From IMG/VR virus record IMGVR_UViG_3300046507_000113, positions 1 to 64,000 of that record: 64,000 bases of DNA; one strand, given 5' to 3'. The stretch is from a virus. The notes below the pieces were generated by a model, which had not been told where the DNA came from, did not search any database, and saw only the letters and a program-made list of their open reading frames with translations. The position numbers were made by a program, and so were the translations under genes. Shown here in pieces: positions 14,466-36,078 of this stretch; the first letter of the stretch is position 1; each line of letters opens with the position of its first letter.

Positions 14466-14479
14466 TAGGGGGCTTTACA

Positions 14480-14850: not shown

Positions 14851-14861
14851 GGGGTAATAAA

Positions 14862-15322: not shown

Positions 15323-15340
15323 TACCGTAGTTCCTCCCCG

Positions 15341-15384: not shown

Positions 15385-15460
15385 TGTCTAAGTGCAAGCA
15401 TACCGAAAGCATTCTGGTATGGAGGAAAGCCGTCATGAATTAAGTTAGATCCGGAATTCA

Positions 15461-20765: not shown

Positions 20766-21167
20766 ATGTTTGTCGCAGTTTATGGTACGCTTAAGCAGGG
20801 TTATGGTAACAATCGTCTCCTTGCTAATTCTACATTCGTTGGTGAGGGTACAGTAAGGGGCTATAAGCTCTATCATGCTGGTTTCCCTGTCGCTTGTCCC
20901 GATGAGAATAGCACTATCTCTGTTGAACTGTGGGATATCGGTGACAGTAAGTCTACCTTGCAGTCTCTTGACTGGCTCGAAGGGTACGATGCAAACGAAA
21001 AAGACCCCGATCATAACAATATGTACAACCGCACTCCTGTCAAGGTGTTTACTGACAGTGGAAGTGTAGAAGCAAATATGTATGTCGGGGCCTCTGGATT
21101 TTGGAAAGATTTCGTCGGTATGAAGGAGTGTTCCATTGTACACGGAAGCTATAAATGGTCTAGGTGA
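20766..21167 (+). CDS. Gamma-glutamylcyclotransferase-like protein
   Basis: A 133-residue protein of the GGCT/AIG2 fold. The substrate-loop signature VYGTLKQGYGN is at residues 5-15, and the expected catalytic Glu lies in LDWLEGYD at about residue 71. Family members remove gamma-glutamyl groups from peptides or amines as 5-oxoproline. In this genome it is the first of two such proteins, and amidoligases that could make gamma-glutamyl bonds lie 7-12 kb downstream. The following gene, which carries the acidic C-terminal tag, starts inside its 3' end. I infer an editing or release step in the ligase system. Confidence 0.8.
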   Translation: MFVAVYGTLKQGYGNNRLLANSTFVGEGTVRGYKLYHAGFPVACPDENSTISVELWDIGDSKSTLQSLDWLEGYDANEKDPDHNNMYNRTPVKVFTDSGSVEANMYVGASGFWKDFVGMKECSIVHGSYKWSR

Positions 21168-21420
21168 TGTTAAGGTAGGGGATACTATCTTTGTTCAAGA
21201 CAGAGTTGACCCCCTAAAGATAAAGAGTTGGCAGTATCGGTATCTAGTTACTGAGGTAACCCCTAGTGGTATCGGTGTCTTATATAACTCCCTAGACGAT
21301 CCCATTACAGCAGCTGGAACTATCGACAAAACAACCTTTGCTGTCCTACGTTGGGGTAGGGTAGTCGATGAACGTCCATATGATCCCTCACAGGAGCCTG
21401 ATGCAGATGACGATGTTTAA
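21136..21420 (+). CDS. Tagged small protein A (GDxV-type, C-terminal acidic tag)
   Basis: A 94-residue protein that starts with TTG at 21136, with AAGGAG seven bases upstream; no ATG is available. Near the N-terminus VKVGDTIFVQD matches the GDxV motif shared with five other small proteins here and suggests a small SH3- or KOW-like barrel. The last 15 residues are RPYDPSQEPDADDDV, the recurring C-terminal tag. It overlaps the cyclotransferase-like gene upstream and the next gene downstream. I infer that the tag is recognised or modified by the nearby amidoligases. Confidence 0.75.
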   Translation: MYTEAINGLGDVKVGDTIFVQDRVDPLKIKSWQYRYLVTEVTPSGIGVLYNSLDDPITAAGTIDKTTFAVLRWGRVVDERPYDPSQEPDADDDV

Positions 21421-21607
21421 CAGAAAATTATATCTGAAAAGCATAGAAGCTACCAATAATGCAGATGCTGTAGCTCAGAGTTCCATTGAGGGTCGTGCTC
21501 ATCAGTGGAATAACTATCGTAGACTTATCCGTAATGGATACAGGAGTATTCATAGAGAGGTTATGGAAACTAAGTACAACCCGTTGAAGGATGGAAAGAA
21601 TGAATAA
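21401..21607 (+). CDS. Hypothetical 68-residue basic protein
   Basis: The frame overlaps the tag-coding end of the previous gene; ATG codons at 21401, 21407 and 21413 are all possible starts, and AGGAG at 21392-21396 favours the first. The protein (from MFNRKLYLKSIEATN) is helical and basic. No family is recognised. The ribosome-binding site lies within the codons for the upstream tag. Confidence 0.55.
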   Translation: MQMTMFNRKLYLKSIEATNNADAVAQSSIEGRAHQWNNYRRLIRNGYRSIHREVMETKYNPLKDGKNE

Positions 21608-21956
21608 CCTATCTCTTATGCTTTACTTCGCAGATGTCGCAGAGAAGATTGCCAGTGCATTTACTTTGATGACGTTGATATTCTTGTTTGCATCAATTGT
21701 GGGAACTATTATAGTCGTATCCACAAGAATAGAGTACTACGGAAAGCCCGCTCCAATGTGGATGGTTATTGTTCCGATTTTATTCCTATTCCTCTCCACA
21801 CCCGGAGCGGTCCTCATTCCCTCTAAGAATACGATCTATTTGATCGCAGGATCGGAGATTGGTGAACAGGTGGTGAAGTCTCCCGAGGCACAGCAGATGT
21901 TCTCGGACATTCGGGAAGTCATCCAGCAGCAAATCAAAGAACTCAAGAAGGAATGA
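21600..21956 (+). CDS. Membrane protein with cytoplasmic helical tail
   Basis: A 118-residue protein starting MNNLSLMLYFADVAEKI. Two hydrophobic helices (LMTLIFLFASIVGTIIVV and MWMVIVPILFLFLS) are followed by an amphipathic, charged helix ending IQQQIKELKKE. It overlaps the previous stop by eight bases. It resembles small phage membrane proteins of unknown function. Confidence 0.65.
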   Translation: MNNLSLMLYFADVAEKIASAFTLMTLIFLFASIVGTIIVVSTRIEYYGKPAPMWMVIVPILFLFLSTPGAVLIPSKNTIYLIAGSEIGEQVVKSPEAQQMFSDIREVIQQQIKELKKE

Positions 21957-21961
21957 TCGGT

Positions 21962-22117
21962 ATGGTTAAATACCGTATTCGTCCCTATTGGGGTATGTAC
22001 GACTACAAGTTGGAACGAAAGTGTTTGTTCTTCTGGCGTACAGTCGGTAAGAGCGATTGCTACTATGAACTCAAAGACCGTGTAGAAACCGTTGGTGGTT
22101 TCTTGGTGGAGGAATAA
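21962..22117 (+). CDS. KYRI-family small protein 1
   Basis: A 51-residue protein starting MVKYRIRPYWGMYDY. It shares its opening (xKYRI) and the arrangement of aromatic and basic residues with the next two genes, so the three look like tandem paralogues. Function is unknown. Confidence 0.6.
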   Translation: MVKYRIRPYWGMYDYKLERKCLFFWRTVGKSDCYYELKDRVETVGGFLVEE

Positions 22118-22119
22118 CG

Positions 22120-22398
22120 ATGGATAAGTACCGTATTGTACCCCATAAGATGGGACGCTGGGAAGTTCAGAAAGAATACAAGAGGTATGAAGGCCGATGG
22201 ATGAGGTACGGTTTTCTGTATCTCAAGAAAAGATGGGTCGAGGATACTGAACCTTCTTACATTGGCTGGTCCACCATGTATGTAAATGATACTTGGGCTG
22301 TCTTTGACACCAAGAACGAAGCCTATGAGTGTATCAACAAGCTGAGGAGAGATGTGGCTCATATGGAGACACCTCCAGAGGAGTATCCCCGTGGGTAA
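22120..22398 (+). CDS. KYRI-family small protein 2
   Basis: A 92-residue protein starting MDKYRIVPHKMGRWEVQ, very rich in Tyr, Trp, Lys and Arg. The N-terminal part (KYRIVPHKMGRWEVQKEY) matches the adjacent paralogues. It overlaps the third copy by eight bases. The aromatic and basic composition suggests nucleic-acid or peptide binding, but that is a guess. Confidence 0.65.
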   Translation: MDKYRIVPHKMGRWEVQKEYKRYEGRWMRYGFLYLKKRWVEDTEPSYIGWSTMYVNDTWAVFDTKNEAYECINKLRRDVAHMETPPEEYPRG

Positions 22399-22669
22399 GT
22401 ATCGTATTGTTACTACTTTCAGAAGGTCTCTTCATGGATCTCGTACTCAGTTCTATCTCTACTATATTGTAGAGTTCAAGAAGTCTTGGTTCTCCGGGTG
22501 GACGGTTCTGAATACTACGATGGCATCTGATGGCTTCGAGTCCTCCAAGAAGTTCATTGAGGAACACAAGAAGCTCAACCAACGTACCGTCGTCTACGAG
22601 GACCCTCAACCGAAAACAGTCCTCTCGAATGATGACTTATTGTACGGATCACAGAGGGAACAACGATGA
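22391..22669 (+). CDS. KYRI-family small protein 3
   Basis: A 92-residue protein; the GTG at 22391 is chosen because AGAGGAG lies eight bases upstream and it restores the GKYRIV opening of its two upstream paralogues. The C-terminal half contains a Lys-rich helix (SSKKFIEEHKKLNQ). Three tandem divergent copies suggest repeated duplication. It is not recognised. Confidence 0.6.
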   Translation: MGKYRIVTTFRRSLHGSRTQFYLYYIVEFKKSWFSGWTVLNTTMASDGFESSKKFIEEHKKLNQRTVVYEDPQPKTVLSNDDLLYGSQREQR

Positions 22670-22875
22670 TCTTAATTGCGTGGTTGTTAATCGGGTACTT
22701 CTCCGGGCTTTTCCTCTTGGCCTTGTATCTCTATGACACAGGAAATAGGGCAGAGCTAGGTGAGGTAATCATTGGCTGTTCTTTTGGTGCTCTAGGTGGA
22801 CCTGTTACACTGGTATTTGCTGTTGTAATAGTCCTTCCACAAGTCATCGTGAGAAACTGGAACAGGAAATTATAA
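22666..22875 (+). CDS. Small two-helix membrane protein
   Basis: A 69-residue protein starting MILIAWLLIGYFSGLFL. A second helix (GPVTLVFAVVIVLPQVIV) ends in the basic tail RNWNRKL, giving a hairpin topology with the loop outside the cytoplasm. Its start and stop overlap both neighbours. Function is unknown. Confidence 0.65.
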   Translation: MILIAWLLIGYFSGLFLLALYLYDTGNRAELGEVIIGCSFGALGGPVTLVFAVVIVLPQVIVRNWNRKL

Positions 22876-23111
22876 TGGGACAGTTCGAAAAGAAAATCTT
22901 CACCAATCTCTATTGGAACACAAACAAGAAAGACTTGGTGATCATTGGTCAATATGGGACTGAGGCAAGGGCTATAGAGAAGATTAAGGATCCTGTCGCA
23001 GAGCCTACATTCATCTATCAGGACACCATTGGGGCCACCGTACTCTTTGAATACAACAAAGAGATTGTGACAACACAGAAAAAGGAAGAGGAAAATGTTC
23101 CGGAAAGTTAA
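22875..23111 (+). CDS. Hypothetical 78-residue soluble protein
   Basis: Starts MGQFEKKIFTNLYWNTN. It has a beta-like first half and a Lys/Glu-rich C-terminal tail (TTQKKEEENVPES). It overlaps the previous stop by one base and the next gene by 17 bases. No family is recognised. Confidence 0.6.
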   Translation: MGQFEKKIFTNLYWNTNKKDLVIIGQYGTEARAIEKIKDPVAEPTFIYQDTIGATVLFEYNKEIVTTQKKEEENVPES

Positions 23112-23385
23112 AGACTTCTTTACAGATTGCTTCAATAGTGTCAGTCCACAAGATGTACAACTCGGTGTAGTAGTTTGTATTCTAGGAGCTATGTTACTCT
23201 TCGCAGTGTTCCTATTGGGCGGTATCATCTATCAGAGCCCCATGGTGGCACTAGCTATCTTTGGTATAGTGCTTGCTGTCGTCGTCTTCGTGGCTTTGGT
23301 GTGGTTCTTTATGGGACTATACGTCAAGCTGACCCGTCCTCCTGTACAGCATTACGAAGATGTTTGGAACCTTCCTCCGGATTAA
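23095..23385 (+). CDS. Two-helix membrane protein, last gene of the small-protein block
   Basis: A 96-residue protein starting MFRKVKDFFTDCFN. Two long helices follow (LGVVVCILGAMLLFAVFLLG and VALAIFGIVLAVVVFVALVW), then a proline-containing cytoplasmic tail. GAGGAAA lies upstream. A hairpin at 23422-23475 follows, so it closes this transcription unit. Confidence 0.65.
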   Translation: MFRKVKDFFTDCFNSVSPQDVQLGVVVCILGAMLLFAVFLLGGIIYQSPMVALAIFGIVLAVVVFVALVWFFMGLYVKLTRPPVQHYEDVWNLPPD

Positions 23386-23421
23386 TTTATTGATCTACTG
23401 GACTGACCTTTCGAATACCTT

Positions 23422-23475
23422 AAGGACTTCTCTAATGGTTTCTCTATTGGGAAGTCCTTTAAAAGGTTTTATTTT
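23422..23475 (+). terminator. Terminator-like hairpin at end of the small-protein block
   Basis: AAGGACTTC (23422-23430) pairs perfectly with GAAGTCCTT (23451-23459), followed by TTAAAAGGTTTTATTTT. The nine-pair stem has a 20-base loop. The tail is AT-rich rather than a pure T run, so termination strength is uncertain. Confidence 0.6.
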
Positions 23476-23535
23476 AACTTCTTATTACTTAACTTCTGAA
23501 CTTAGTATCTAATTGAGTTTCGATGTATGAGTTTA

Positions 23536-23564
23536 ATTATATCATATATTTTTCCATTTGTAAA
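23536..23564 (-). promoter_or_regulatory. Minus-strand sigma70-type promoter facing against the gene direction
   Basis: On the minus strand TTTACA (complement of 23559-23564) lies 17 bases before a perfect TATAAT (complement of 23536-23541). Transcription would run leftward into the membrane-protein gene and the hairpin at 23422, antisense to the block. A CCCCTAGGGG palindrome lies just upstream at 23564-23573. The AT-rich context means chance occurrence cannot be excluded. Confidence 0.45.
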
Positions 23565-23622
23565 CCCCTAGGGGGTATTTTTCTTTGTCACATCTCAAGA
23601 TGGAAGTTCGAAAGGAGGGATC

Positions 23623-23931
23623 ATGACAGAAAGAACACTAGAAATTATTAAATCTTGGGAAGATGTTCTACCGGGAGACCTTCTTATTTGGTCTGATAGT
23701 GATCTTGTGGTGGAATTCTCCAGTGTCGCTCAATACGGTTTCAGCGGTACAGTTCGAGGTGCTAATGACCTTGACTATGAAGACGGTATGAATAGTGATA
23801 CTTGGACCATGGAGACTTATAATCCTAATAAGCTGTACGATACCAATCTTGGATGGCGTAAGATCGTTACTGGTCCTCCTGAACGTCCATATGATCCAAG
23901 CCAGGAACCTGACGATGAGGATGATGTATGA
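23623..23931 (+). CDS. Tagged small protein B (GDxL-type, C-terminal acidic tag)
   Basis: A 102-residue protein starting MTERTLEIIKSWEDV, with AAAGGAGG six bases upstream. Near residue 18 LPGDLLIW matches the GDxV-type motif of the family, and the end is RPYDPSQEPDDEDDV. It is the first gene after the 23.4-23.6 kb intergenic gap and overlaps the tagged acetyltransferase gene by four bases. Confidence 0.78.
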   Translation: MTERTLEIIKSWEDVLPGDLLIWSDSDLVVEFSSVAQYGFSGTVRGANDLDYEDGMNSDTWTMETYNPNKLYDTNLGWRKIVTGPPERPYDPSQEPDDEDDV

Positions 23932-24317
23932 ATACCGAATATAGTATTCGTAGTGTAACTGTGACTCTCTTTAACCATGAGCATGGTTCTTGTGTAGGAA
24001 CTCATCTCCCAGGTACTGGTGAGGTAGTCCACTTGGCCAACTCCTATATCACTCATCAACAAAGAGGTAAGGGATTGGGGTCTCAGTACCATCAGGAACG
24101 TCTCAACCATTTGATCGATGACGAGAAGGTGACACTTGTTACTTGTATCATCCGAATGGATAACGAGCCACAGGTGAAGATCCTCAAGAAAAATGGATGG
24201 AAGTTCCTCCATGAATTCAACAGTATGTACAATGAACCTCTTTGTCTCTGTGTTAGAGATGTGAGGGTAGTGGAGTACGATCCTAACCAACAGCCTGATG
24301 GGGATGAAGACGTATGA
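23928..24317 (+). CDS. GNAT-family acetyltransferase with C-terminal acidic tag (tagged protein C)
   Basis: A 129-residue protein. HQQRGKGLGSQYHQE at about residues 44-58 is the acetyl-CoA-binding motif A of GNAT enzymes, and the segment VKILKKNGWKFLHEF fits motif B. The enzyme should transfer an acyl group to an amine, but the substrate is unknown. The last 14 residues, EYDPNQQPDGDEDV, are a variant of the tag found on six proteins with a different fold, showing that the tag is portable. Start and stop overlap both neighbours by four bases. Confidence 0.78.
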   Translation: MNTEYSIRSVTVTLFNHEHGSCVGTHLPGTGEVVHLANSYITHQQRGKGLGSQYHQERLNHLIDDEKVTLVTCIIRMDNEPQVKILKKNGWKFLHEFNSMYNEPLCLCVRDVRVVEYDPNQQPDGDEDV

Positions 24318-24541
24318 AAGTCTGGGTGCTTGAAGAAGTTAACGAAGGCTACTGGACTAATTACAAGATCTTCCGAGAAGATCATCCCCCATCATCACTG
24401 CGTATCATGGAAGTGATCCAACAATGGGGTTATTCTCTAAAATATGCTGGTGGAGTGGCCGATCACCTAGAACAACAAAATAAGTGGGATGATACATTTG
24501 AGGGTGTTCATATCTCACTTAAGTTGGTGGAGATAGAATGA
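24314..24541 (+). CDS. Hypothetical 75-residue protein
   Basis: Starts MKVWVLEEVNEGYWTNY. It has an N-terminal strand pattern and later helical segments (RIMEVIQQWGYSLKYAG). It lacks the tag. It overlaps the tagged acetyltransferase by four bases and the next gene by four bases. Function is unknown. Confidence 0.65.
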   Translation: MKVWVLEEVNEGYWTNYKIFREDHPPSSLRIMEVIQQWGYSLKYAGGVADHLEQQNKWDDTFEGVHISLKLVEIE

Positions 24542-24684
24542 GCATCCATTATTATGACTATGTGGACCCTGATAGGGTATTGCAGAACACAGCAGAGTTT
24601 CTTGCCAGACCTCCACAAAAGAGATCGTTGAAAGTTACCTCCAACAATGGGGGTTTTCCATTTAAAGTAGTAAGAGAGAAATAA
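24538..24684 (+). CDS. Hypothetical 48-residue protein
   Basis: Starts MSIHYYDYVDPDRVLQN and ends KVVREK. It is soluble and basic toward the C-terminus. The four-base overlap with the upstream gene supports translation. No family is recognised. Confidence 0.5.
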   Translation: MSIHYYDYVDPDRVLQNTAEFLARPPQKRSLKVTSNNGGFPFKVVREK

Positions 24685-24685
24685 T

Positions 24686-25411
24686 ATGTCAGTTATTACT
24701 GCCAATGTCGTGCCCACTACCTGTACTGCTGTCCTCCTTACTGGATGGGCCGAGGTTGAATTTGAGTTTGGTAAGGGTACAGGAAATAACCGTAAGACTA
24801 ACGTCAAGAAGGAACTCAAGTTCGTCAAGGATCTCATCGAAGGTAGTTTCTATCGGTCTCACAAGATGATCCATGCCTTCATTACCAATGAGGAGATCGA
24901 GAACTATCGCACTGATAAGCTTCTCACTAAGCTTGGTTTCGAGTTGGTCTTCGAGGGTCCTTGGACAGGTAAAACCTTCCCACAAGGTAATGCATCTGAC
25001 AGGCTCTACTCTAATAGGGATGAACAGAGGCACGAAGAGACAGGTAGCCTCTTCCTTTGGGCATGTACCCCTGAGAAGTATCAGGAATCTCTTGAAAACT
25101 TCAAGAAGGAACTCGAAGCAGAACTTCTTCAGATTGATCCTCCCAAGAAACCTGATCCTGCTCGTCTCGCCATGCCTGAGTTGAAGAAGACCGGACTCAT
25201 TAAGAGCGGCATCATTGCAGAGAATTCCTATGTTGACAACGGTATCCATGCCGTCCTGAAGGTTACTCCTGAAGTAGCCTACCGACATATTAAACTCACG
25301 TATGGTATTGATATCAAGAAGTGGAAGAATTACGGAGATGGTTGGACTAAGATTACTATCAGACAGCTCAAAGAAGCCCACACTGCTTGGAAAGAAGAAC
25401 CGGTCGTATGA
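24686..25411 (+). CDS. Hypothetical 241-residue protein in the amidoligase operon
   Basis: Starts MSVITANVVPTTCTAVL, with AGAGAGAAA upstream. It has a beta-rich N-terminal third, a charged helical middle (CTPEKYQESLENFKKELEAELL) and a C-terminal mixed region. No catalytic motif is apparent. It precedes the 300-residue protein and the class I amidotransferase-like gene, so it may belong to the same pathway. Confidence 0.7.
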   Translation: MSVITANVVPTTCTAVLLTGWAEVEFEFGKGTGNNRKTNVKKELKFVKDLIEGSFYRSHKMIHAFITNEEIENYRTDKLLTKLGFELVFEGPWTGKTFPQGNASDRLYSNRDEQRHEETGSLFLWACTPEKYQESLENFKKELEAELLQIDPPKKPDPARLAMPELKKTGLIKSGIIAENSYVDNGIHAVLKVTPEVAYRHIKLTYGIDIKKWKNYGDGWTKITIRQLKEAHTAWKEEPVV

Positions 25412-26249
25412 GGTTGTACCTCTAACTCTAAATGATCCTCAACAGAAGTGGCTCTTCCCCAGGAATGTGACTGGTAGGTTCTGCTATAAGGATAATGGTA
25501 GATGGAATAATTGGGAGTCCTCTACTTGCCATTCTCCGGTCCGTCAGCTGCTTTCTGGTCTGACTGGCTTGGTGAGTACCCTGTGCAAGGTAAACCCTCT
25601 CACAAACAAATGGTGGGACTTTCTGGCCATATCTAATCCGGTATATAGGGAACTCTTTGAAGTGCCCGGTTGGAAGGTGATGGCTGATGCTTCTGGTCAG
25701 TATCATATGTTCTCCATGCCAGCAGAAGTGTTCAAGCTTCCTGTCCCTAGGATGCTGCTCTATGCCTTCTTGATTGATAGTAGAGTACCATTTGATCCTG
25801 CTGGTGGTGGTACTGAGAGGGTTAAGACTTGGGATCTTCTTGTTAGTCTTGGTGTTGAACCAACCCTTGCCCACCTGATGTCAGTACACTTCAATGTCAT
25901 GGAAGATAAACTCTACTTGACAGGTATGCAGTGGAACGGTGCCCATCAGGTCCTCAATGACAATTGGCATTACGGTACGATGCGGACTGATTTCTCCATG
26001 TATCTTCGAGGTGAGTACCGGACTGATGGGGAACCTGACGAGAAACTTCTAACTTCTCAGCTTTGGTTCTCTAAGAGTGGTAAATCCGATAAACACGTTA
26101 TACTTGGAAGTAATGATCTTAAGGACCTCACCAAAGAGAAGTCTGTGGGATCGTGGTCAAAAAGTTACTACATAGATCTTGACAGTGTCCCGGAGGTTGT
26201 TGAGATCTACAAGAAGAGAATTGAAGAAAGAAGGAAGTTTATACAATGA
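25338..26249 (+). CDS. Hypothetical protein of about 300 residues, start uncertain
   Basis: The frame overlaps the end of the previous gene. ATG 25338 is the nearest in-frame canonical start but has only a weak ribosome-binding site, and no ATG, GTG or TTG occurs closer to the end of the upstream gene. A rarer start near 25400 is therefore possible, given other odd starts in this genome. The body is rich in Trp and Tyr (WWDFLAISNPVYRELFEVPGW, then NDNWHYGTMRTDF). It overlaps the amidotransferase-like gene by four bases. I do not recognise it. Confidence 0.6.
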   Translation: MVGLRLLSDSSKKPTLLGKKNRSYEVVPLTLNDPQQKWLFPRNVTGRFCYKDNGRWNNWESSTCHSPVRQLLSGLTGLVSTLCKVNPLTNKWWDFLAISNPVYRELFEVPGWKVMADASGQYHMFSMPAEVFKLPVPRMLLYAFLIDSRVPFDPAGGGTERVKTWDLLVSLGVEPTLAHLMSVHFNVMEDKLYLTGMQWNGAHQVLNDNWHYGTMRTDFSMYLRGEYRTDGEPDEKLLTSQLWFSKSGKSDKHVILGSNDLKDLTKEKSVGSWSKSYYIDLDSVPEVVEIYKKRIEERRKFIQ

Positions 26250-26872
26250 CTAAAGGGTCGGTCTACATTGTAGGCAGTGATTTGAGTGTCAGTAATATGT
26301 TTCTGAATGAGGGCTTTAAGGTTACTAGCCTGATCGGGACAGCAGATGTTGTTTGCTTCTTGGGTGGTTTCGATATCAACCCTGAGCTTTACAACCAAGA
26401 GCTAGGCCCCAAGATGAGGTGGACTAGTGTTAGTCTGAGTGATGACACTCGTGATCTTGGATCATACAGGAAGCTACGTAACGACCAGCTTAAGGTTGGT
26501 ATTTGCCGTGGTGGTCAGTTCCTGAATGTCATGAGTGGTGGCAGTATGTATCAGCATGTCAATGGTCATACTAATCAACACAAGATTTATGATACCCTAA
26601 TCAATCCTGGAGAAGAGGTTGTCGTTACTTCCTCTCATCATCAACAGATGATACCAGGTGCTGGAGCCGAGGTCCTCGGTTATTCAGAGGGTATTTCAGA
26701 TGAGTTCTGGGGAGATAAAGGTAAAGTAGTTCCCCCGAAGTTTGAGTCCGAAGTTCTGTTCTATGACAGTACCAAGTCTCTTTGTTTTCAACCGCATCCT
26801 GAATGGAATCTTCGAGGTACTCACGATTCTTGTTCTGGGTATTTCTTCGACATCATTGATCTAATCCGCTGA
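26246..26872 (+). CDS. Class I glutamine amidotransferase / gamma-glutamyl hydrolase-like protein
   Basis: A 208-residue protein with the triad of class I amidotransferases and peptidase C26. The nucleophile Cys is in GICRGGQFLNV at about residues 88-98, and His-x-Glu is in FQPHPEWN near 182-189. Family members hydrolyse glutamine or gamma-glutamyl bonds. Beside amidoligases it could supply ammonia, or reverse gamma-glutamyl linkages as PuuD-like hydrolases do. It overlaps the preceding gene by four bases. Confidence 0.82.
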   Translation: MTKGSVYIVGSDLSVSNMFLNEGFKVTSLIGTADVVCFLGGFDINPELYNQELGPKMRWTSVSLSDDTRDLGSYRKLRNDQLKVGICRGGQFLNVMSGGSMYQHVNGHTNQHKIYDTLINPGEEVVVTSSHHQQMIPGAGAEVLGYSEGISDEFWGDKGKVVPPKFESEVLFYDSTKSLCFQPHPEWNLRGTHDSCSGYFFDIIDLIR

Positions 26873-26881
26873 GGCACTAAA

Positions 26882-27880: not shown

Positions 27881-28110
27881 AAGTCAAAGTGTGGACTCTT
27901 ATTGTAGACAATGGTGACGGATCTTCTTCTGCACATCAGTTCAAGAATGCACAAGAGATCAAGGATCATCTGGAAGAAGATGCTGATGAAGATTTCAGTG
28001 TCGGTCTGGAAGAAATCACTGATGGGGCTACTATCTTCGATCAGTACGACTATCCTTGTGAAGTTTCGGTAGGTATCTTTGATACTGATGGTTATGAGGT
28101 AGTTGAATAA
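27877..28110 (+). CDS. Small acidic protein preceding amidoligase
   Basis: A 77-residue, very acidic protein starting MKVKVWTLIVDNGDGSS with the segment HLEEDADEDFSVGLEE. It ends EVVE rather than with the common tag. It overlaps both neighbours, so it is co-translated with the amidoligase. An acidic carrier or substrate is conceivable but unproven. Confidence 0.65.
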   Translation: MKVKVWTLIVDNGDGSSSAHQFKNAQEIKDHLEEDADEDFSVGLEEITDGATIFDQYDYPCEVSVGIFDTDGYEVVE

Positions 28111-28949
28111 TGCCTGAGATCCTAATTGGAACTGATCCGGAATTGTTTGTCACTGATGAGCATGACCGGTTTATCTCTGCACATGACCTGATCCCAGGTT
28201 CGAAAGAGTTTCCCCATCCAGTACCTCGTGGTGCTATTCAGGTGGATGGGGTAGCAGCAGAATTCAATATCGATCCTGTCTCGAAGGTGGACCAGTTCAC
28301 CAAGAACATTCGAAGTGTCATGAACTCTATGGAAGAGTATATCAAGGAGAAACATCCTTCGTATAACCTTCATATCGCACCCACTGCCCACTTCGAAAGG
28401 GCATACTTTGATCTCCTTCCAGAAGAGACAAAGAAACTTGGTTGCACTCCTGACTTCGATTGCTATACAGGCGAAGAGAACATGCCTCCGGAGACCACTG
28501 AGAGCTTCCGGACAGGTGCGGGCCATATCCATATCGGATGGACCAGAGATGCGTCCCTTGGCGACGAGAAGCACTTTAAGAACTGCTGTGATCTGGTGAA
28601 GGAACTGGATGCTACTCTGTTCCCTGCTTCTTTGTTATGGGACAATGATAACAAGCGTCGTGAACTGTATGGCAAGATGGGTTCTTTTCGTCCCAAGCCG
28701 TATGGTCTGGAGTATCGCCCCCTCTCTAATGCATATCTCAAAGAGAAGTCAACTCAAGAGTTCGTCTTCAATACAAGTATGTATGTAGCTCAGTTGTTCT
28801 TTGGTACTGGTACTCGTGTCAAGAATGACAAGCTCGCCCAGAGGTTCGTGGAGGATACACTCCTTGATCGTGAAATGGGACAGCTCGGGATCAACAAATA
28901 TCTTGGATACATGGGAGAAAAGTATGGCATCCCAATTCTCCATAGGTGA
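28110..28949 (+). CDS. COOH-NH2 ligase type 2 (glutamine synthetase-fold amidoligase), copy 1
   Basis: A 279-residue enzyme of the phiEco32-like amidoligase-type-2 family. Motifs in order are GTDPELFV (residues 6-13, metal-binding Glu), QVDGVAAEFN (44-53), GAGHIHIGW (about 133-141) and FRPKPYGLEYRP (about 191-202). These match the glutamine synthetase-like metal and ATP site. The family is predicted to join a carboxylate to an amine using ATP. It is immediately followed, with overlap, by a tagged small protein, and a second copy lies 1.4 kb downstream. Confidence 0.88.
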   Translation: MPEILIGTDPELFVTDEHDRFISAHDLIPGSKEFPHPVPRGAIQVDGVAAEFNIDPVSKVDQFTKNIRSVMNSMEEYIKEKHPSYNLHIAPTAHFERAYFDLLPEETKKLGCTPDFDCYTGEENMPPETTESFRTGAGHIHIGWTRDASLGDEKHFKNCCDLVKELDATLFPASLLWDNDNKRRELYGKMGSFRPKPYGLEYRPLSNAYLKEKSTQEFVFNTSMYVAQLFFGTGTRVKNDKLAQRFVEDTLLDREMGQLGINKYLGYMGEKYGIPILHR

Positions 28950-29202
28950 TCTTGTTGACTTAAAGGACGACTCAGAGATCACAATTAGTTATGGCAGTAA
29001 TAGTGCTGTTAGAAGGACATATGAGAAGTGTGGTCTACTCCCTCCGTATAGAATCACAAGAATTGAACCATCTAACACTATACCCGGTGTGATGGTAATC
29101 TTCATAGAGGGTTGTGATAATGGTCGGCATGACTTAAGATTTAAGTTTGCAGAGAGATATTACGATCCTTCACAAGAACCTGATGACGTGGATGACGTTT
29201 AA
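28924..29202 (+). CDS. Tagged small protein D (GDxV-type, C-terminal acidic tag)
   Basis: A 92-residue protein; ATG 28924, inside the end of the amidoligase gene, is chosen because it gives an N-terminus (FSIGDLVDL) aligned with the other family members. The C-terminus is RYYDPSQEPDDVDDV. The overlap with the ligase gene means the two are translationally coupled, the clearest physical link between tag and ligase. Confidence 0.72.
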   Translation: MASQFSIGDLVDLKDDSEITISYGSNSAVRRTYEKCGLLPPYRITRIEPSNTIPGVMVIFIEGCDNGRHDLRFKFAERYYDPSQEPDDVDDV

Positions 29203-29217
29203 CAAAAGGAAATAGCC

Positions 29218-30309
29218 ATGTGTGGCTTGTATGGAATAATGGGTCCGGGAATTACTCTCAAGGACTTGAAACTCTTCCGCGACCTAGGACTTACTTCCCA
29301 ACTTCGTGGTACTGATGGTGCTGGTGTATATCAGATCAGGTCATCAACTTCTGGGAAGAAGAACTTCTGGAATCTCGAACAACTCTATCGCAATCAGTAT
29401 GGGTTCACCTCCCTACACAACATGATTGACGACAACAAGAACCATAAAGACTATCGAGAGCTTCTGCAGAACCAGTCCGTAGACTTGATCATCGGTCACA
29501 ATCGTGCAGCTACCATTGGTGACGTACGACAGTCGAATTGCCATCCGTTTGTCAAGGACAATATCGTCGGTGCTCACAATGGTACACTGTATGAAAAGCA
29601 GTACTACCATATCACAAAGACAGACAGTGAACTGATGTTCGAGGATATCGACAAGAATGGTCTTGTTGAAGTTCTTCGTGACTTCCGTGATCCTAAGTCT
29701 GCTTATGCAATCACGATGTATGATCGTAATGATCGTCACATGTACTTTGTTCGCAATGATCTTCGTACACTGGCATTTGCGTTCAATGAAGATCGTGGTG
29801 TAATGTATTGGGCTTCCGAGTTGGGTATGCTCAAGTATATCGTTGGTGAACGTGGTGGTGAGAAGATCAAGACTTTCTCCTTGAAGCCGGGTCTAGTGGT
29901 TCGTCTGTCTCCTAGCGACATTACCCTGAATAACATCAGGAATAACGCTGACAAGATCATCACTGTTCATGAATGGATCGCTCCGCCCAAAGAGACTATC
30001 GTGGTCAAGGTCCCTCCCGAAGAGGATAAGACACTTGCTCTTCCTGCTCCGGTTAAGACTGAGAAGGTCGATAACTTTGATGTAGCGGGGTCTGCGAAGG
30101 GTAACGTAGTTCCATTTCCCAAAACGCCTGCTCTTCGGGCTTTTCATGCTAAGTGTGCTTGCGGGAAGAAAGACTTGAACCTTCTGACTATCAGCTATGC
30201 TCGCCGCAAGAAGACAACTGATATCCGATATAATGAGCATTTGGATTGCTATTATTGTGCAGAGTGCGATCCATTGCTTCTGGAATCCAAAGATGAGGTA
30301 AGACAGTAA
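29218..30309 (+). CDS. Class II glutamine amidotransferase (Ntn) with C-terminal zinc ribbon
   Basis: A 363-residue protein starting MCGLYGIMG, so Cys2 becomes the N-terminal nucleophile after Met removal. LRGTDGAGVYQ, GHNRAATIGD and AHNGTLYE are the usual glutaminase-domain segments (residues 1-230). The last 70 residues hold CAC...CYYC-type cysteine pairs that probably bind zinc. The enzyme should release ammonia from glutamine for an amide-forming partner. It sits between two type-2 amidoligases and overlaps the second by one base. Confidence 0.88.
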   Translation: MCGLYGIMGPGITLKDLKLFRDLGLTSQLRGTDGAGVYQIRSSTSGKKNFWNLEQLYRNQYGFTSLHNMIDDNKNHKDYRELLQNQSVDLIIGHNRAATIGDVRQSNCHPFVKDNIVGAHNGTLYEKQYYHITKTDSELMFEDIDKNGLVEVLRDFRDPKSAYAITMYDRNDRHMYFVRNDLRTLAFAFNEDRGVMYWASELGMLKYIVGERGGEKIKTFSLKPGLVVRLSPSDITLNNIRNNADKIITVHEWIAPPKETIVVKVPPEEDKTLALPAPVKTEKVDNFDVAGSAKGNVVPFPKTPALRAFHAKCACGKKDLNLLTISYARRKKTTDIRYNEHLDCYYCAECDPLLLESKDEVRQ

Positions 30310-31025
30310 TGATTACGGTGAAGATTGGTTGTGATCCGGAAGGTTTCCTCTTCGATAAAAAGAAGGGAGCTTTCGTTTCCGCCCATGATGTTCTTCCGGG
30401 AACAAAGCATAAGCCCTTCAAATTGGAGAGGGGTGCAGTACAGGTTGATGGTGTTGCAGTGGAATTCAATATTGATCCTGCTGTGACAGAAGAAGAATTT
30501 GACAATAACATCTCTGTTGTTCTCCAGCAGATTGATGAGATGGTCTTTGCTGCAAACAAGGACTTGGAAGTTCGATGGGAACCGGTTGCCACATTCTCGG
30601 AAGAGGTCTGGAAGCTTGTCCCTGAACAGAGCAAAGTCCTCGGTTGCGATCCTGACTATAATGTCAAGGGTGAAGTGAACATCAATCCGACAGAGAAACT
30701 GGAAGCAGCAAGTATTCGTACGGCTGCAGGTCATATTCATATTGGGTTTGTTGATAAGCCCAAGGATAACATCTCTCATGATCATTTCCAAGATTGTCTT
30801 TACATTGCAAAGGGATTCTTTGAGAGCAGTTTGCCATCGTTCGTACCAAGGACGAAAGCAGAAGAAGAGAGAATGAACTATTATGGCCATAACGGATCTT
30901 TTAGACCGAAGCCGTATGGGGTGGAGCTACGTGCACCATCGAATTGGTATGTACCGTCTTCGCAGAATCGCAGGACGATATATACAGAAACTCGGAATAA
31001 ATTTAGAGAACTCACAGGACTTTAA
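30309..31025 (+). CDS. COOH-NH2 ligase type 2, copy 2
   Basis: A 238-residue paralogue of the ligase at 28110. GCDPEGFLF, QVDGVAVEFN, AAGHIHIGF and FRPKPYGVELRAP fall in the same order and spacing. In the first motif Glu-Gly replaces Glu-Leu but the Glu is kept. It is shorter than copy 1 at the C-terminus. Having two copies suggests two different substrates or a heteromeric enzyme. Confidence 0.86.
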   Translation: MITVKIGCDPEGFLFDKKKGAFVSAHDVLPGTKHKPFKLERGAVQVDGVAVEFNIDPAVTEEEFDNNISVVLQQIDEMVFAANKDLEVRWEPVATFSEEVWKLVPEQSKVLGCDPDYNVKGEVNINPTEKLEAASIRTAAGHIHIGFVDKPKDNISHDHFQDCLYIAKGFFESSLPSFVPRTKAEEERMNYYGHNGSFRPKPYGVELRAPSNWYVPSSQNRRTIYTETRNKFRELTGL

Positions 31026-31029
31026 AGGT

Positions 31030-31656
31030 ATGAGAAATAAGTATCATGGTGATGATCTACAGGCTCGTCTGGGTGGTACGATCATTCGACATAAGGGTCA
31101 TCCCTACATTGCACAAGTCAATAGCGGTTCCGTTATCGATTTGATGGATATCGTTACAGGACAACTAATTTGCCGTGTGGACCACGATGATAGAGACCTC
31201 GACATTAGCTCACTTACTCTTGGTTATGTCAACGTTGAGGATCCTGGGCACAAGCTGGCTGTATACCTCAAGAGAGAAGCTCTCCGTCAGTTCCGACAGG
31301 GTGTTGACATTGGTCGGCTCACTCAGTTTGTTCTTCGACCGGGTGTCCCACAGGTAACTCCGAAGGTCCTGTATTGTCAGGGTTTCGTTGATTGTGTCAC
31401 AGGGAAGTATCCCACAGTATCTGAAGCGCTCTCTAAGATTATTAACAAGAGCTTCTTCTCTGTTGCTGTATCTCGTAATGTGGCACTCAAGAAGGATGGT
31501 GACCTAATCAAGGTCTTCGTCAAGGATGATGAGGTAGGCTATATGCAGCCCAATATGCTGAAGATTGTAAAGGTCCCCAAGACCGATACTTCTCGGTATG
31601 CCATGTTCTTCCTGAACGAGGTCGAAGGTTGGAAGGTTGTTGAAGGTATCAAGTAA
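31030..31656 (+). CDS. Hypothetical 208-residue protein between amidoligases
   Basis: Start chosen at ATG 31030 (MRNKYHGDDLQARLGG), with TAAAGG upstream; a longer in-frame version would overlap the previous ligase by 143 bases and is unlikely. It is beta-rich with several VxVxxxG turns and could form repeated small barrels. It is co-translated with the next amidoligase (one-base overlap). Function is unknown. Confidence 0.68.
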   Translation: MRNKYHGDDLQARLGGTIIRHKGHPYIAQVNSGSVIDLMDIVTGQLICRVDHDDRDLDISSLTLGYVNVEDPGHKLAVYLKREALRQFRQGVDIGRLTQFVLRPGVPQVTPKVLYCQGFVDCVTGKYPTVSEALSKIINKSFFSVAVSRNVALKKDGDLIKVFVKDDEVGYMQPNMLKIVKVPKTDTSRYAMFFLNEVEGWKVVEGIK

Positions 31657-32690
31657 TGACAAGTCAGAATGTTACAAAGATTTTTGATATTCAAAAGAAT
31701 GTAGGACGTACTCCTTATAAGACACGTCACTCAGGTCGTTTTGGTATCGAGATTGAGACTGAGACGGACAACAAGTACAAGTATCCAGTGTTGAAGTTCT
31801 GGGAACCAAAAGAAGATCGGAGCCTTCGTGGCTTTGGTGTGGAGTATGTTCTCAAGGCACCATTGGATAGTGTTGACCTGACTGAACCTCTCAAAGAGTT
31901 CAAGTATGTGGATGAACAATATAAGTTCAAGCGGGGTTCGGTCTCCACTAGTGTTCACGTCCACATGAACATGCAAAACGAAACCTACAAGACCGTTGCC
32001 AATATCATGACGGTATGGGCACTGATCGAACCGATCCTTGTTCGTTACTCCGGTCCTGATCGTATGTCCAATCTGTTTTGTTTTGGTCTGATGGACGTTG
32101 AGGGTCTGCTTGATAAGTGGATTGGCGTCTTGAACATGATCAATCGGAATACCTTTGGTAAGGTAGCGGTCAGTCAGGATCAGGTTAAGTATTCGGCTCT
32201 GAATATTGCTACACTAAGTAGCTTGGGTACGCTTGAAGCACGTACTTTCAGAGGTGAGCTTGATACCAATGTCATCCAGAAGTGGGTTGATATTCTCGGG
32301 AAGATTGTTTCCTTCTCTAGTGATCCTGACATGGATCCTTCTCTGATCATGAAGATGTACGATGAACAGGGGATTAATATCCTTGACATTATCTTCGGTG
32401 AACTTGCAGAAGAATTGAAGATCAAGGATTACAAGAAGCTCATTAGTTTCGATGAGATCTTCCATGCATCCAAGATTGCTTGTGTCTCTAAGGATTGGTC
32501 ACGTTTCGGTATCCTTAAAGTCAAGCCGATCTATAAGGAAATGATCAGACCTCAGTTGGAAGAACTCGCTCAGGTTCTGTTCAAGTCTCCTTATGATCAA
32601 CTGAAGTATGAGGAGCGTAATATTGTTATCGAGCGCTACCACCAGATTAACGTGAACATGAAGGTGGTGGATGCAACTGGAGATATTTAA
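31656..32690 (+). CDS. Amidoligase (glutamine synthetase-like fold, second subfamily)
   Basis: A 344-residue protein with the sequence order of the amidoligase family: RFGIEIETE (residues 28-36), VSTSVHVHMNM (about 97-107) and LGTLEARTFRGELD (about 189-202). The Glu-x-Glu and His-x-His elements would form the metal-ATP site. It belongs to a different branch from the two type-2 enzymes. It is flanked directly by a tagged protein gene (one-base overlap) and then the ATP-grasp gene. Confidence 0.85.
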   Translation: MTSQNVTKIFDIQKNVGRTPYKTRHSGRFGIEIETETDNKYKYPVLKFWEPKEDRSLRGFGVEYVLKAPLDSVDLTEPLKEFKYVDEQYKFKRGSVSTSVHVHMNMQNETYKTVANIMTVWALIEPILVRYSGPDRMSNLFCFGLMDVEGLLDKWIGVLNMINRNTFGKVAVSQDQVKYSALNIATLSSLGTLEARTFRGELDTNVIQKWVDILGKIVSFSSDPDMDPSLIMKMYDEQGINILDIIFGELAEELKIKDYKKLISFDEIFHASKIACVSKDWSRFGILKVKPIYKEMIRPQLEELAQVLFKSPYDQLKYEERNIVIERYHQINVNMKVVDATGDI

Positions 32691-32974
32691 TGGATATTGG
32701 AGACGAAGTAGAATACCATAGAGAAGCACCACCCGGTGTCCTCAACCCGGCAATCTATACTAACTTTAATGGCTCATCAGGTATCATTAAGGACATGACA
32801 AGGGTCATGGCTACAGTATTTTTTAATAATGGTACTCTGAAAGATCACCATTACCGTGAGGCACAACTGACTGGTGGAAGTCTTATTACAGTCAAGAGAG
32901 AAAATCTAAGGCTCCTCTGGAAAGAACGGCCTTATAATCCTGAACAAGAACCAGATGATGAAGACGATGTATAA
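32690..32974 (+). CDS. Tagged small protein E (GDxV-type, C-terminal acidic tag)
   Basis: A 94-residue protein starting MDIGDEVEYHREAPPG, with the GDxV motif at residues 4-7 and a following GIIKD turn, consistent with a small beta barrel. It ends RPYNPEQEPDDEDDV. It begins on the last base of the amidoligase gene and is followed by the ATP-grasp gene, so it is encoded between two ligases. Confidence 0.78.
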   Translation: MDIGDEVEYHREAPPGVLNPAIYTNFNGSSGIIKDMTRVMATVFFNNGTLKDHHYREAQLTGGSLITVKRENLRLLWKERPYNPEQEPDDEDDV

Positions 32975-32989
32975 TCGTAGGAGATTGAA

Positions 32990-33769
32990 ATGATTAATGC
33001 GCTTTTCTCGTACAGCCAGCATTCGGATGGTGCTAAGGGCCTTAAGAATGCTCTTGGTGTTCCGAAGATCAAACACACAGGTAGTACTTTCGTTCCCGCC
33101 GCACACAAAAAACTGATCAATTGGGGTGCAACCCCTGATCGATTCCCTCAGAAACTACTTACATGTCAGGTTATCAACCATCCGGACAAGGTTGCTCTTG
33201 CCGTTGACAAGATGACTACCTTCAAGATCTTCCGTGATAACGGTGTTTCTTGCCCTGAGTTCACAACAGAACGAGCTACAGCAGTACAGTGGCTTGAACA
33301 GGGTCATGATGTCTTTGCTCGTACTCAGCTCCGTGCATCTAGTGGTCGTGGTATCGTTATCATGGATCATGAGCATCCGGATACTTGGGAAGTTGGTGCA
33401 CCACTCTATGTGAAGTATGTCAAGAAGCAGGACGAATATCGTATCCATGTGGTACGTGGTCAGGTAATTGACGTACAGCGTAAGGGTCTTCGTGCTGAAT
33501 TCCAGAATGATCCGAATGTCAACTGGAAGATCCGTAACCTTGCCAATGGTTTCGTGTTCTCTCGTGACTTGAATACGAACCGTCCGGTTCCACAGATCGT
33601 TAAGGACGTTGGTATTGCAGCAGTACAGGCTCTTGGGCTTGACTTTGGTGCAGCAGACGTAATCTACCAGCGTCAGAGTAACCGTGCTTATGCTCTGGAA
33701 GTAAACACCGCCCCAGGTCTGGAAGGTCAGACTGTAACATCTTACGCCACAGCTCTCAGCGCCCTCTAA
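32990..33769 (+). CDS. ATP-grasp ligase (RimK-like)
   Basis: A 259-residue protein with the ATP-grasp layout. DKMTTFKIFRDNGVSCP lies at the start of the nucleotide-binding part, then ARTQLRASSGRGIVI (glycine-rich loop), PLYVKYVKKQDEYRIHVV, and near the end GAADVIYQ and YALEVNTAPGLEG with the metal-binding Glu and Asn. ATP-grasp enzymes of the RimK type add amino acids to carboxyl groups of peptides through an acyl phosphate. Together with the acidic tag this is the strongest candidate for an enzyme that extends or caps the tag. Confidence 0.85.
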   Translation: MINALFSYSQHSDGAKGLKNALGVPKIKHTGSTFVPAAHKKLINWGATPDRFPQKLLTCQVINHPDKVALAVDKMTTFKIFRDNGVSCPEFTTERATAVQWLEQGHDVFARTQLRASSGRGIVIMDHEHPDTWEVGAPLYVKYVKKQDEYRIHVVRGQVIDVQRKGLRAEFQNDPNVNWKIRNLANGFVFSRDLNTNRPVPQIVKDVGIAAVQALGLDFGAADVIYQRQSNRAYALEVNTAPGLEGQTVTSYATALSAL

Positions 33770-33787
33770 TATTACGAAAGATATACT

Positions 33788-34906
33788 ATGTGTGTGATCA
33801 TGGTACTGCCGCCCAAGGCAATGATTAACAAAAGTCATTTCTACAATGCTTGTTATAATAACTGGCATGGGTATGGCATCATTATCAAGAAGCCGAAGAA
33901 GTTTGAAGTGGTAAAACAGTTCAAGGCAGAAGGCAACGACCCCGATGAGATTTGGGATATTGTCAATGACAACAAGGATCATGAACGTATTGTTCACGTC
34001 CGTTATTCGACAAGAGGGGCAACTGACGAGACGAACACTCAGCCCTTTGAAGTGTTCAACAATGGAACTCGTCGTGTGATGTTCATGCACAACGGAACTC
34101 TCAACGGATTTGGTGAATGGAACCAGTCCGTCTCTGGGGGTAAGAGTGACACCAATGCTTTCTGTGAGACAGTTCTGAGTAAGTCTCTCCGTAAGTGGTC
34201 GTCAGATGAGAATGGTCTCGGTGATTATACCGATCCGGACTTCATCAAGCTCGTTGTTGACAAGCAGTGGACGATGAACTCTCGTGGTATCTTTGTATCC
34301 AATGACCTTCCGAATATGATGATCGGTAACAGGGGATACACAGGTTGGCAGCTCTACAAACATCCTGATGCCTCTACTCATGGTGAGATCTGGGTATCGA
34401 ATGACGAGTACTTCGATAAGCTGACACGAGGCCCAAAGTTCGACGAACAGGAAAAGATCAAGAAGGCAGCAGAGGAGGCTCGTCGTCAGGCGGAGAGGGA
34501 CAATGCCCCTTTTCAGGGGGGATCGTCAAGAACCTCTTCAGAAACTTCCTCCGAGATCGCGGGGATTACGATCTTCAAGAAGGAGACAGCTACGAACGAA
34601 GCAGTTCTCACAGCTATCAACGATATCATTGATACGTGGGATCTTAATGACCCGAAGGACGTCTCCAAACTCCGATTCATTGCCTACGAAGAATGGGTAG
34701 GTTTCTTGGAAGAACAGAAGAACAACAGTGATTTCGTGAGTGCTGCCATTATTCAACAGTTCGCAGACCATATCTGCAAGCTCACGATGAAGGTACGTTC
34801 TCTGGAACTCCGTCATAATAAGGCTTCACAGCGGGTTGAAGAACTCCGTAAGCAGCTTGATGCAATTGAAGGTGATAAGAATGGCAGTGCAGCTGAAGCA
34901 GCGTAA
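33788..34906 (+). CDS. Second class II glutamine amidotransferase
   Basis: A 372-residue protein starting MCVIMVLP, again with Cys2. HVRYSTRGATD and FMHNGTLNGFG correspond to the glutaminase-domain motifs. The C-terminal 150 residues are helical and charged, with RRQAERDNAP and a long coiled segment ending VEELRKQLDAIEG. This gives a second ammonia-producing subunit different from the one at 29218. It overlaps the next gene by 26 bases. Confidence 0.82.
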   Translation: MCVIMVLPPKAMINKSHFYNACYNNWHGYGIIIKKPKKFEVVKQFKAEGNDPDEIWDIVNDNKDHERIVHVRYSTRGATDETNTQPFEVFNNGTRRVMFMHNGTLNGFGEWNQSVSGGKSDTNAFCETVLSKSLRKWSSDENGLGDYTDPDFIKLVVDKQWTMNSRGIFVSNDLPNMMIGNRGYTGWQLYKHPDASTHGEIWVSNDEYFDKLTRGPKFDEQEKIKKAAEEARRQAERDNAPFQGGSSRTSSETSSEIAGITIFKKETATNEAVLTAINDIIDTWDLNDPKDVSKLRFIAYEEWVGFLEEQKNNSDFVSAAIIQQFADHICKLTMKVRSLELRHNKASQRVEELRKQLDAIEGDKNGSAAEAA

Positions 34907-35489
34907 GAACCTCTCGTATGATCCTTGGATGGTCCTTGAAAGGGCCTCCAAGAGTACACCAGACTGGTCAGCACTGAATGCCAAACGACAGGAGCATTTT
35001 GTTCTTGTCACTGGTACTGCTAGGGCTCGTCGTCAGAGGAATGATATTCTTTCTGGTTGTAGGAACTACGGACTGGCCAATACGACTAGTGATGTTTTCA
35101 TCATGAAGCGAGGTCCTTTCCAGTATGAAACCAATCAAGCACCAGAACCAATGGTGTTCGAGTTTCCTGCCACACAGAAGCAGAGGCTCTTGAAGTTTCC
35201 AGAGGATTTCCCTGCGAAGGATCTAGGAAAGGTACAGGGAGAGATGTGGGGTGTACCCCTTCGTGTCCTCGCTGAACTGGATGCATTTATGGGTAATGGA
35301 GAAGGAGTAATCCGAGAGAAGAGGTATATTAGTCTCGTCAATTCAGAACATGAAATCAGAAATCATCTAGCATGGATGTATCTCGTAAACTTCGATCATT
35401 TTGAAGAATACACATGCATGTATCAATTGTATAATACGAATAGAACAATTCCGAATACGGGTTCTATGATTTATTTTTATTCTGGCTAA
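34881..35489 (+). CDS. Second gamma-glutamylcyclotransferase-like protein
   Basis: A 202-residue protein from ATG 34881, with GAAGGTGA upstream and overlap with the amidotransferase. The segment QGEMWGVPLRVLAELDAF, then REKRYISLV, fits the core of the cyclotransferase fold (GElyxvP, LD, R-beta strand). The catalytic Glu would be the one in GNGEGV, shifted from the usual place, and the YGTL loop is not clear. It could therefore be an inactive or divergent member, and the call is moderate. Confidence 0.5.
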   Translation: MAVQLKQRKNLSYDPWMVLERASKSTPDWSALNAKRQEHFVLVTGTARARRQRNDILSGCRNYGLANTTSDVFIMKRGPFQYETNQAPEPMVFEFPATQKQRLLKFPEDFPAKDLGKVQGEMWGVPLRVLAELDAFMGNGEGVIREKRYISLVNSEHEIRNHLAWMYLVNFDHFEEYTCMYQLYNTNRTIPNTGSMIYFYSG

Positions 35490-35501
35490 GGATTGTCAAT
35501 T

Positions 35502-35828
35502 ATGGCAAATATGGCAAAAATGAAATTTCAACTAGGGGATTATGTAAGGTACACCAACAAGAGAGAAAAACTAGATTTTGTTGGTACGATTGTTTCTGCT
35601 GATCCGAACTATGGTGAATATCTCATTCTACCGGAAGATCATCTCAAAGGTGCAATGAAGATGTACAGATCATCTAGTGAGGAAGGTACTTGGCTCAAAA
35701 ATCACTTTTCACATGCTGGACGGTCTCTAGAACCTGTGGTTTGGGCATCTTCGAAATCTCGTAGCATGAGGTATGCTGAATTAATGTACGATCCTACTCA
35801 GGAGCCTGATGATGAAGACGACATTTAA
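35502..35828 (+). CDS. Tagged small protein F (GDxV-type, C-terminal acidic tag)
   Basis: A 108-residue protein; ATG 35502 has AAGGA eight bases upstream. FQLGDYVRYTN near the N-terminus and FVGTIVSAD give a KOW/SH3-like opening. It ends MYDPTQEPDDEDDI, the only copy with a terminal Ile. The next tagged gene begins inside the codons for this tag. Confidence 0.77.
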   Translation: MANMAKMKFQLGDYVRYTNKREKLDFVGTIVSADPNYGEYLILPEDHLKGAMKMYRSSSEEGTWLKNHFSHAGRSLEPVVWASSKSRSMRYAELMYDPTQEPDDEDDI

Positions 35829-36078
35829 TGAAGGTGATAGAGTTATCCTGACCCGTGACAGCACCAATGGTCCCACAGGAGAGTATGGTCGTAAGGGTGA
35901 CACTGGTACTGTCGTCCAAAATCTGTACGGTACTTCTAATGTACAAGTAAGAGTTCGCTTTGACAAGATGTTTCATGGTGCCCACGAGTGGTATGCCTAT
36001 GTCAAAGAACTCGAACATGAATATATAGAGAGACCTTATGACCCTAGTCAAGAACCAGACGATGAGGACGACGTGTAA
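35809..36078 (+). CDS. Tagged small protein G (GDxV-type, C-terminal acidic tag)
   Basis: An 89-residue protein starting MMKTTFNEGDRVILTRD. GDTGTVVQN follows the GDxV motif as in KOW or SH3-like barrels. The end is RPYDPSQEPDDEDDV, identical to that of protein B 12 kb away although the codons differ. It is the last gene before the promoter at 36082 and so closes the ligase block. Confidence 0.78.
   Translation: MMKTTFNEGDRVILTRDSTNGPTGEYGRKGDTGTVVQNLYGTSNVQVRVRFDKMFHGAHEWYAYVKELEHEYIERPYDPSQEPDDEDDV

Follow-up and report, generated by a model that had tools for sequence, protein, structure and literature searches.

A phage-specific acidic C-terminal peptide on small early proteins of rhizobial phages, a candidate docking motif for a single partner

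Why would seven small proteins of one phage end in nearly the same acidic peptide? The question is raised by the viral genome IMGVR_UViG_3300046507_000113 from IMG/VR, of which positions 1 to 64,000 (64,000 nucleotides; here, the window) were analyzed. An earlier note on this DNA described the peptide as a C-terminal tag, located inside or next to a block of amidoligase genes, and proposed that it serves for recognition or modification. The near-identical peptide was found at the exact C-terminus of all seven proteins, designated A to G, with the stop codon directly after the last tag codon in each: RPYDPSQEPDADDDV in A (codons 21373-21417), RPYDPSQEPDDEDDV in B (23884-23928), EYDPNQQPDGDEDV in C (24273-24314), RYYDPSQEPDDVDDV in D (29155-29199), RPYNPEQEPDDEDDV in E (32927-32971), LMYDPTQEPDDEDDI in F (35781-35825), and, as in B, RPYDPSQEPDDEDDV in G (36031-36075). 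An all-against-all scan of open reading frame (ORF) ends across the whole 69-kb genome returned exactly these seven tags, and control scans 12, 20, or 28 residues upstream of the window ORF ends returned no shared peptides. Across phages, the internal control positions were similarly empty, bar one residual shift (12 residues upstream) in three phages. Chance or low complexity as the origin of the tag is ruled out by these internal-position controls. At the DNA level, a search of 2.9 million viral contigs with a 39-nucleotide degenerate version of the tag hit only two contigs besides this one, and a relaxed pattern matched 34 stretches, nearly all on contigs encoding several tagged small proteins.

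Is the conserved entity the peptide or the DNA? Codon choice varies between the window tags, for example, among TCA, AGC, and AGT for Ser and among GTT, GTA, and GTG for Val. The proportion of synonymous differences (pS) between these tags is 0.86, where random synonymous choice would give 0.81 ± 0.05, and the proportion of nonsynonymous differences (pN) is 0.14, compared with 0.68 in the 13 codons upstream. The tags within each phage follow the same pattern, with pN of 0.07-0.22 versus 0.6-0.7 in the 13 adjoining upstream codons and pS close to that of random codon choice. The claim that selection acts on the peptide is thus borne out, with pS at the random level and pN low. Recent copying of the tag DNA is unlikely because the synonymous sites are saturated. 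A different source of constraint would be the translation signals of the following genes, the tag arising as a by-product of the ribosome-binding site and start codon that an overlapping downstream gene needs. Indeed, about two thirds of the rhizobial tags are overlapped by a downstream start, the DNA for ...GATGACGACATTTAA contains a start codon when read in another frame, and the Gly and Gln codons of the tags are biased to Shine-Dalgarno-like forms. However, 37 tags without an overlapping downstream start are conserved equally to the 81 overlapping ones, which rules out a buried ribosome-binding site for the rhizobial tags. Among the window tags, D, E, and G have no overlapping downstream start: the next gene begins 15 nucleotides past the stop of D, with its own ribosome-binding site, and likewise 15 nucleotides past the stop of E, and a promoter-like sequence, with no gene, lies directly downstream of G. 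Moreover, the Asp and Tyr codons of the tags match genome usage. Such a by-product is therefore hardly credible as the explanation of the tag.

The closest cultured relatives of the window phage, by DNA polymerase and terminase, are the Rhizobium phages RHph_N3_19, N3_13, and I3_11 and the Sinorhizobium phage phiM6. All of them possess the same island and many tagged, mostly SH3-like small proteins, and seven metagenomic phages are likewise tagged. A generic scan counted 7 tagged proteins in the window, 12 in phage G002, 13 in phiM6, 15-17 in the RHph phages, and 12-19 in the long metagenomic phages. The tag comes in dialects, namely, RPYDPSQEPDDEDDV in the window, KYDPNQTGDTEDDI or EYKYDQSGDTEDDI in the RHph phages, PYSPDQNGDTDDDI in phage G367, and DYKVDQEPLEDEETL in phiM6. 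In 66 of the 70 orthologue pairs, defined from the domains alone with the tag left out, tags of the same phage were closer to each other than to the tag of the orthologue. The tag alone assigned a protein to the correct phage in 76% of the cases, compared with 12% when labels were shuffled. For example, alignment of the orthologues of protein C in G002 and G368 shows that both keep the tag, each in the dialect of its own phage. The frequent loss of the tag among orthologues that the earlier note had considered was not encountered, none of those compared having lost it. The simplest reading of one dialect per phage is a single trans-acting partner that differs between phages; all tags of a phage are probably read by one such partner, and we infer that the dialects reflect co-evolution with this single receptor.

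The tag appears, from fold predictions, to be common to unrelated folds, SH3-like and GNAT-like. All seven tagged genes are on the plus strand, and, in agreement with the earlier description, six of the products show a GDxV-like opening motif: A (21136-21420; 94 amino acids from a TTG at 21136, the true start being perhaps further in), B (23623-23931; 102 amino acids, with an orthologue, G366 15806, in another dialect), D (28912-29202; 96 amino acids from 28912), E (32690-32974; 94 amino acids), F (35493-35828; about 106-111 amino acids, overlapping the start of G), and G (35809-36078; 89 amino acids). Orthologues of F were found in nine other tagged phages, phiM6 being without one. The SH3-like barrel is predicted from one modeled protein, G: the model contains five strands and aligns to SH3, KOW, PsaE, and Hpy99I structures (VIA-align Z 8-9.6; Foldseek E about 5e-3), the Pfam SH3_12 match (4.7e-5) is below the gathering score, and the tail, presumably flexible, is modeled with low confidence and no secondary structure. 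A profile of the G domain, with the tag removed, matched 54 of 120 tagged rhizobial proteins at E < 0.01, as well as several tagged proteins of phiM6, Salinivibrio phage CW02, and Klebsiella phage Asterion. Protein C (23928-24317; 129 amino acids) had been called a GNAT acetyltransferase. It is GNAT-like, with a Pfam E value of about 1e-3, and both of its scores are under the gathering cut-off (Acetyltransf_3, E 9.8e-4, 20.3 bits versus 25.4; Acetyltransf_1, 18.3 versus 20.7).

The peptide extends beyond the relatives of the window phage to bacterial genomes. A search of 84,980 species of bacteria and archaea with the relaxed pattern gave 19 stretches. In six, the match is the C-terminus of histidyl-tRNA synthetase (HisRS) in Rhizobium or relatives, which reads YDPxQxGDTDDDV or close to it; a seventh is a small ORF of a Rhizobium prophage, and the others look like chance. 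Each of these seven genomes has a single match. The HisRS identity is firm for the three that were checked (TIGR00442, 3e-110 or better). Most Rhizobium HisRS end about 16 residues earlier, without the tail, and some tails are degraded. One is frameshifted (HisS locus L083), so that the tail is lost (..VPYDPAPSR, then a stop) with the tail-coding DNA still visible downstream. Where kept, the tail is under purifying selection, with stronger constraint than the adjoining HisRS stretch (pN 0.09 and pS 0.43 versus 0.21 and 0.45 in Rhizobium). In an approximate HisRS tree, in which many of the nodes shown are weak, the tail is kept in the two deepest lineages and is scattered elsewhere; this distribution favors an old tail with many losses, although, given the weak nodes, repeated gain is also conceivable. 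At six loci (L078-L082 and L084), hisS with a full or slightly degraded tail is followed at once by the repeat CCCCTTCTCCCCTCGGGGAGAAGGTGGCCCGAAGGG, which we take to resemble a RIME element, and untailed relatives differ at this position. In the species inspected, the HisRS tail is thus followed by an intergenic repeat and no overlapping gene, another observation at odds with an origin in translation signals.

Two rhizobial prophages carry the peptide as well, on one tagged protein each. Prophage G001, of 45 kb and unrelated to the window phage, encodes a 59-amino-acid ORF, reaching the contig edge, that ends in RRYDPTQEPDDEDDV, near the window dialect. The small ORF in a Rhizobium prophage noted above (L035) ends in YDPTQAGDTEDDV, near the HisRS form. 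The sharing of dialects across such unrelated elements is the main reason for leaning to a host-encoded partner. The reverse route, in which HisRS acquired the tag from a phage and was not mimicked by one, is also conceivable.

The HisRS tail bears on two further roles for the tag. As a degron or an anti-degradation tail, the peptide would govern protein turnover, and its C-terminal place and the low-confidence, unstructured tail of the protein G model would suit this role. Nevertheless, HisRS, an essential enzyme, keeps the tail under purifying selection in several species, which is difficult to reconcile with a strong degron read by the host, and acidic tails are not typical of ClpXP or Lon signals, leaving turnover improbable. 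Alternatively, the tag could direct early proteins into the virion as a packaging signal, like the T4 capsid targeting sequence but at the C-terminus. The internal proteins of T4 are also variable and have one terminal signal in common, and dialects would then follow the head proteins of each phage. The tagged genes, however, belong to the early, replication part of the genome, well away from the structural genes, and the HisRS and prophage tags do not fit packaging, which is thus quite improbable.

Are the enzymes of the surrounding island the readers of the tag? The island genes of the window, all on the plus strand, encode gamma-glutamyl cyclotransferase (GGACT) 1 (20766-21167; Pfam PF06094, 3.8e-19), a class I glutamine amidotransferase/peptidase C26-like protein (26246-26872; PF07722, 2.6e-11), COOH-NH2 ligases 1 (28110-28949; PF14395, 3.8e-8) and 2 (30309-31025; phrog_3815, 6.5e-55), class II glutamine amidotransferases 1 (29218-30309; PF13522, 5.7e-12) and 2 (33788-34906; PF13230, 3.9e-7), Amidoligase_2 (31656-32690; PF12224, 2.5e-7; phrog_7469, 2e-42), a RimK-like ATP-grasp ligase (32990-33769; phrog_2599, 1.1e-74, with weak, partial NCBIfam RimK/MptN matches), and GGACT-like protein 2 (34914-35489). 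The block therefore holds the full set of enzyme types of the amidoligase island phages, and a RimK-like ligase is encoded near the tags. All seven window tags lie in or beside this block, as had been noted; this proximity does not extend to all relatives, where some tagged genes are 8-13 kb off (at 49 kb in G002 and at 6.4-10.8 kb in the RHph phages).

Under the substrate explanation, the RimK-like ATP-grasp and the amidoligases would add amino acids or amines to the acidic tails, in the way that RimK extends ribosomal protein S6. Every well-covered tagged phage (32 kb or more of sequence; 12 in all) has Amidoligase_2, and many tagged genes are scattered among those of the island; the 12 form one clade, so this co-occurrence is not independent evidence. 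Conversely, the same scan detected no shared tag in 13 further island phages (six of them covered over the island region only). Apart from a weak hit in RIO-1, these also have no recognizable members of the SH3-like family, and the tag therefore tracks this family more closely than the island. Searches with PF12224, the only island profile used on these genomes, detected no Amidoligase_2 in the Rhizobium genomes with tailed HisRS, in prophage G001, or in the genome carrying L035. Tag and island are therefore not always found together, and the co-occurrence claimed earlier stands only for the well-covered tagged phages.

Other island phages, conversely, have C-terminal tags of their own on small proteins, some recognizably of the same SH3-like family, as the substrate explanation would have it: nine proteins ending in ..LLEENV in CW02 (L167, Salinivibrio) and 13 and 10 ORFs ending in LENK in Asterion (L168) and Klyazma (L177), respectively, both Klebsiella phages. 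Here the codons double as a ribosome-binding site where genes overlap, and in such overlaps LENK and LLEENV retain a stronger signal of this kind. Most are spelled TTG GAG AAT AAA TGA or similar, in line with a translational origin; yet where no start overlaps, the Klebsiella and Salinivibrio proteins still end in the peptide, encoded with TTA GAG, TTA GAA, or CTC GAA.

Dialect distance, computed without phiM6, correlates with the distances of Amidoligase_2, COOH-NH2 ligase, and ATP-grasp (rho 0.53-0.65) and not with that of DNA polymerase (0.10). The primase-helicase adjoining the island correlates equally well (0.68), however, so linkage may be enough to explain the relationship. Class II amidotransferase 2, GGACT-like protein 2, and a conserved protein encoded at 24686-25411 (plus strand) occur, among the phages compared, in tagged rhizobial phages only. 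The last of these is kept in 10 of 10 tagged rhizobial phages and in 0 of 9 other island phages tested in the same comparison; its predicted structure has a weak GNAT-like match over approximately residues 1-145 (Foldseek and VIA-align), and it is a candidate tag-handling factor. A neighborhood search with COOH-NH2 ligase 1 returned 0 loci. Taken together, the view of the tag as an amidoligase substrate is only partly supported, and the island as the reason for the tag is a tentative explanation.

What, then, is the tag for? The reading favored here, with a probability of about 0.62, is that it is a short linear C-terminal docking motif by which many proteins would engage one partner. A phage-specific 13-residue peptide on many small, mostly SH3-like early proteins would be bound by one trans-acting partner, which perhaps then modifies them, and the tag possibly mimics the tail of a host enzyme. 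The recognition role proposed in the earlier note accords with peptide-level selection, the unrelated predicted folds, and the phage-wide dialect. As to the receptor, a host factor that binds, now or once, the HisRS tail, which the phages would mimic, is a plausible candidate, somewhat short of even odds; an enzyme of the phage's own amidoligase/RimK-like island is a weaker one, and packaging, turnover, and other roles divide the rest. A bolder version, in which dozens of variable SH3-like proteins seize one host factor, the dialects track that factor, and hosts repeatedly shed the tail in an arms race, is speculative and rather doubtful. Several observations weigh against docking on one partner. 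Most Rhizobium HisRS have no tail, so a HisRS-keyed host receptor is not required by the data; the tags of the Salinivibrio and Klebsiella phages are quite different; and linkage alone could explain part of the association between dialect distance and the island genes, given that the primase-helicase follows it too.

If a docking motif it is, the peptide identifies a whole set of early phage proteins, otherwise anonymous, as sharing one partner, so that their common function becomes testable, and the match with HisRS, an essential host enzyme, offers a concrete lead to that partner. Cultured tagged phages are at hand, RHph_N3_19 on Rhizobium phaseoli and phiM6 on Sinorhizobium meliloti, with 13-17 tagged proteins each. 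The tags may also supply natural substrates for amidoligase islands, for which, as far as we know, no targets are established. We know of no earlier description of a shared phage-specific C-terminal tag, nor of a precedent for a takeover system based on tail mimicry, and the search terms tried found no literature on the tag or on HisRS-tail mimicry.

Elsewhere in the window, positions 10300-15500, between the terminase side and the early genes, contain few convincing ORFs on either strand. Positions 17526-17628 match the Rfam YrlA family, a Y-RNA-like tRNA mimic, weakly (34.6 bits, E 8.8e-6, below the gathering score of 69). In this element, a tRNA T-arm-like half lies upstream of a D-arm-like half, and the pattern occurs twice in tandem, with a similar arrangement at approximately 17411-17480. 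ARAGORN called no tRNA in the window.

The tag can be compared with several known systems. Like the T4 capsid targeting sequence, it is one short terminal signal on variable small proteins of one phage; the T4 signal, however, is N-terminal and cleaved by the prohead protease, whereas this one is C-terminal, belongs to early-region genes, and is also found on a host enzyme. With Pup and ubiquitin-like tags, it shares carboxylate chemistry and the logic of ATP-dependent ligation, but the parallel with Pup drawn earlier is a poor one, as here the peptide is encoded within each full protein and there is no separate conjugated tag protein. Iyer, Aravind and colleagues (2009; cited in PMC6256558) reportedly predicted phage amidoligase islands and, in general terms, peptide modification by them. 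The window resembles these islands in combining Amidoligase_2, COOH-NH2 ligase, ATP-grasp, class I and II amidotransferases, and GGACT in one cluster and differs in the shared phage-specific tag, which most island phages tested do not have. The likeness to RimK and ribosomal protein S6 lies in the RimK-like ATP-grasp of the island and in acidic C-termini of the kind that RimK extends. RimK has one known substrate, in contrast to up to 19 tagged proteins here, and the tag also occurs without Amidoligase_2. Finally, the C-terminal tip of SSB (DDDIPF) is likewise an acidic, disordered C-terminal peptide that recruits partners; there, one host protein serves many partners, whereas here many proteins, their tags without a terminal Pro-Phe, perhaps serve one.

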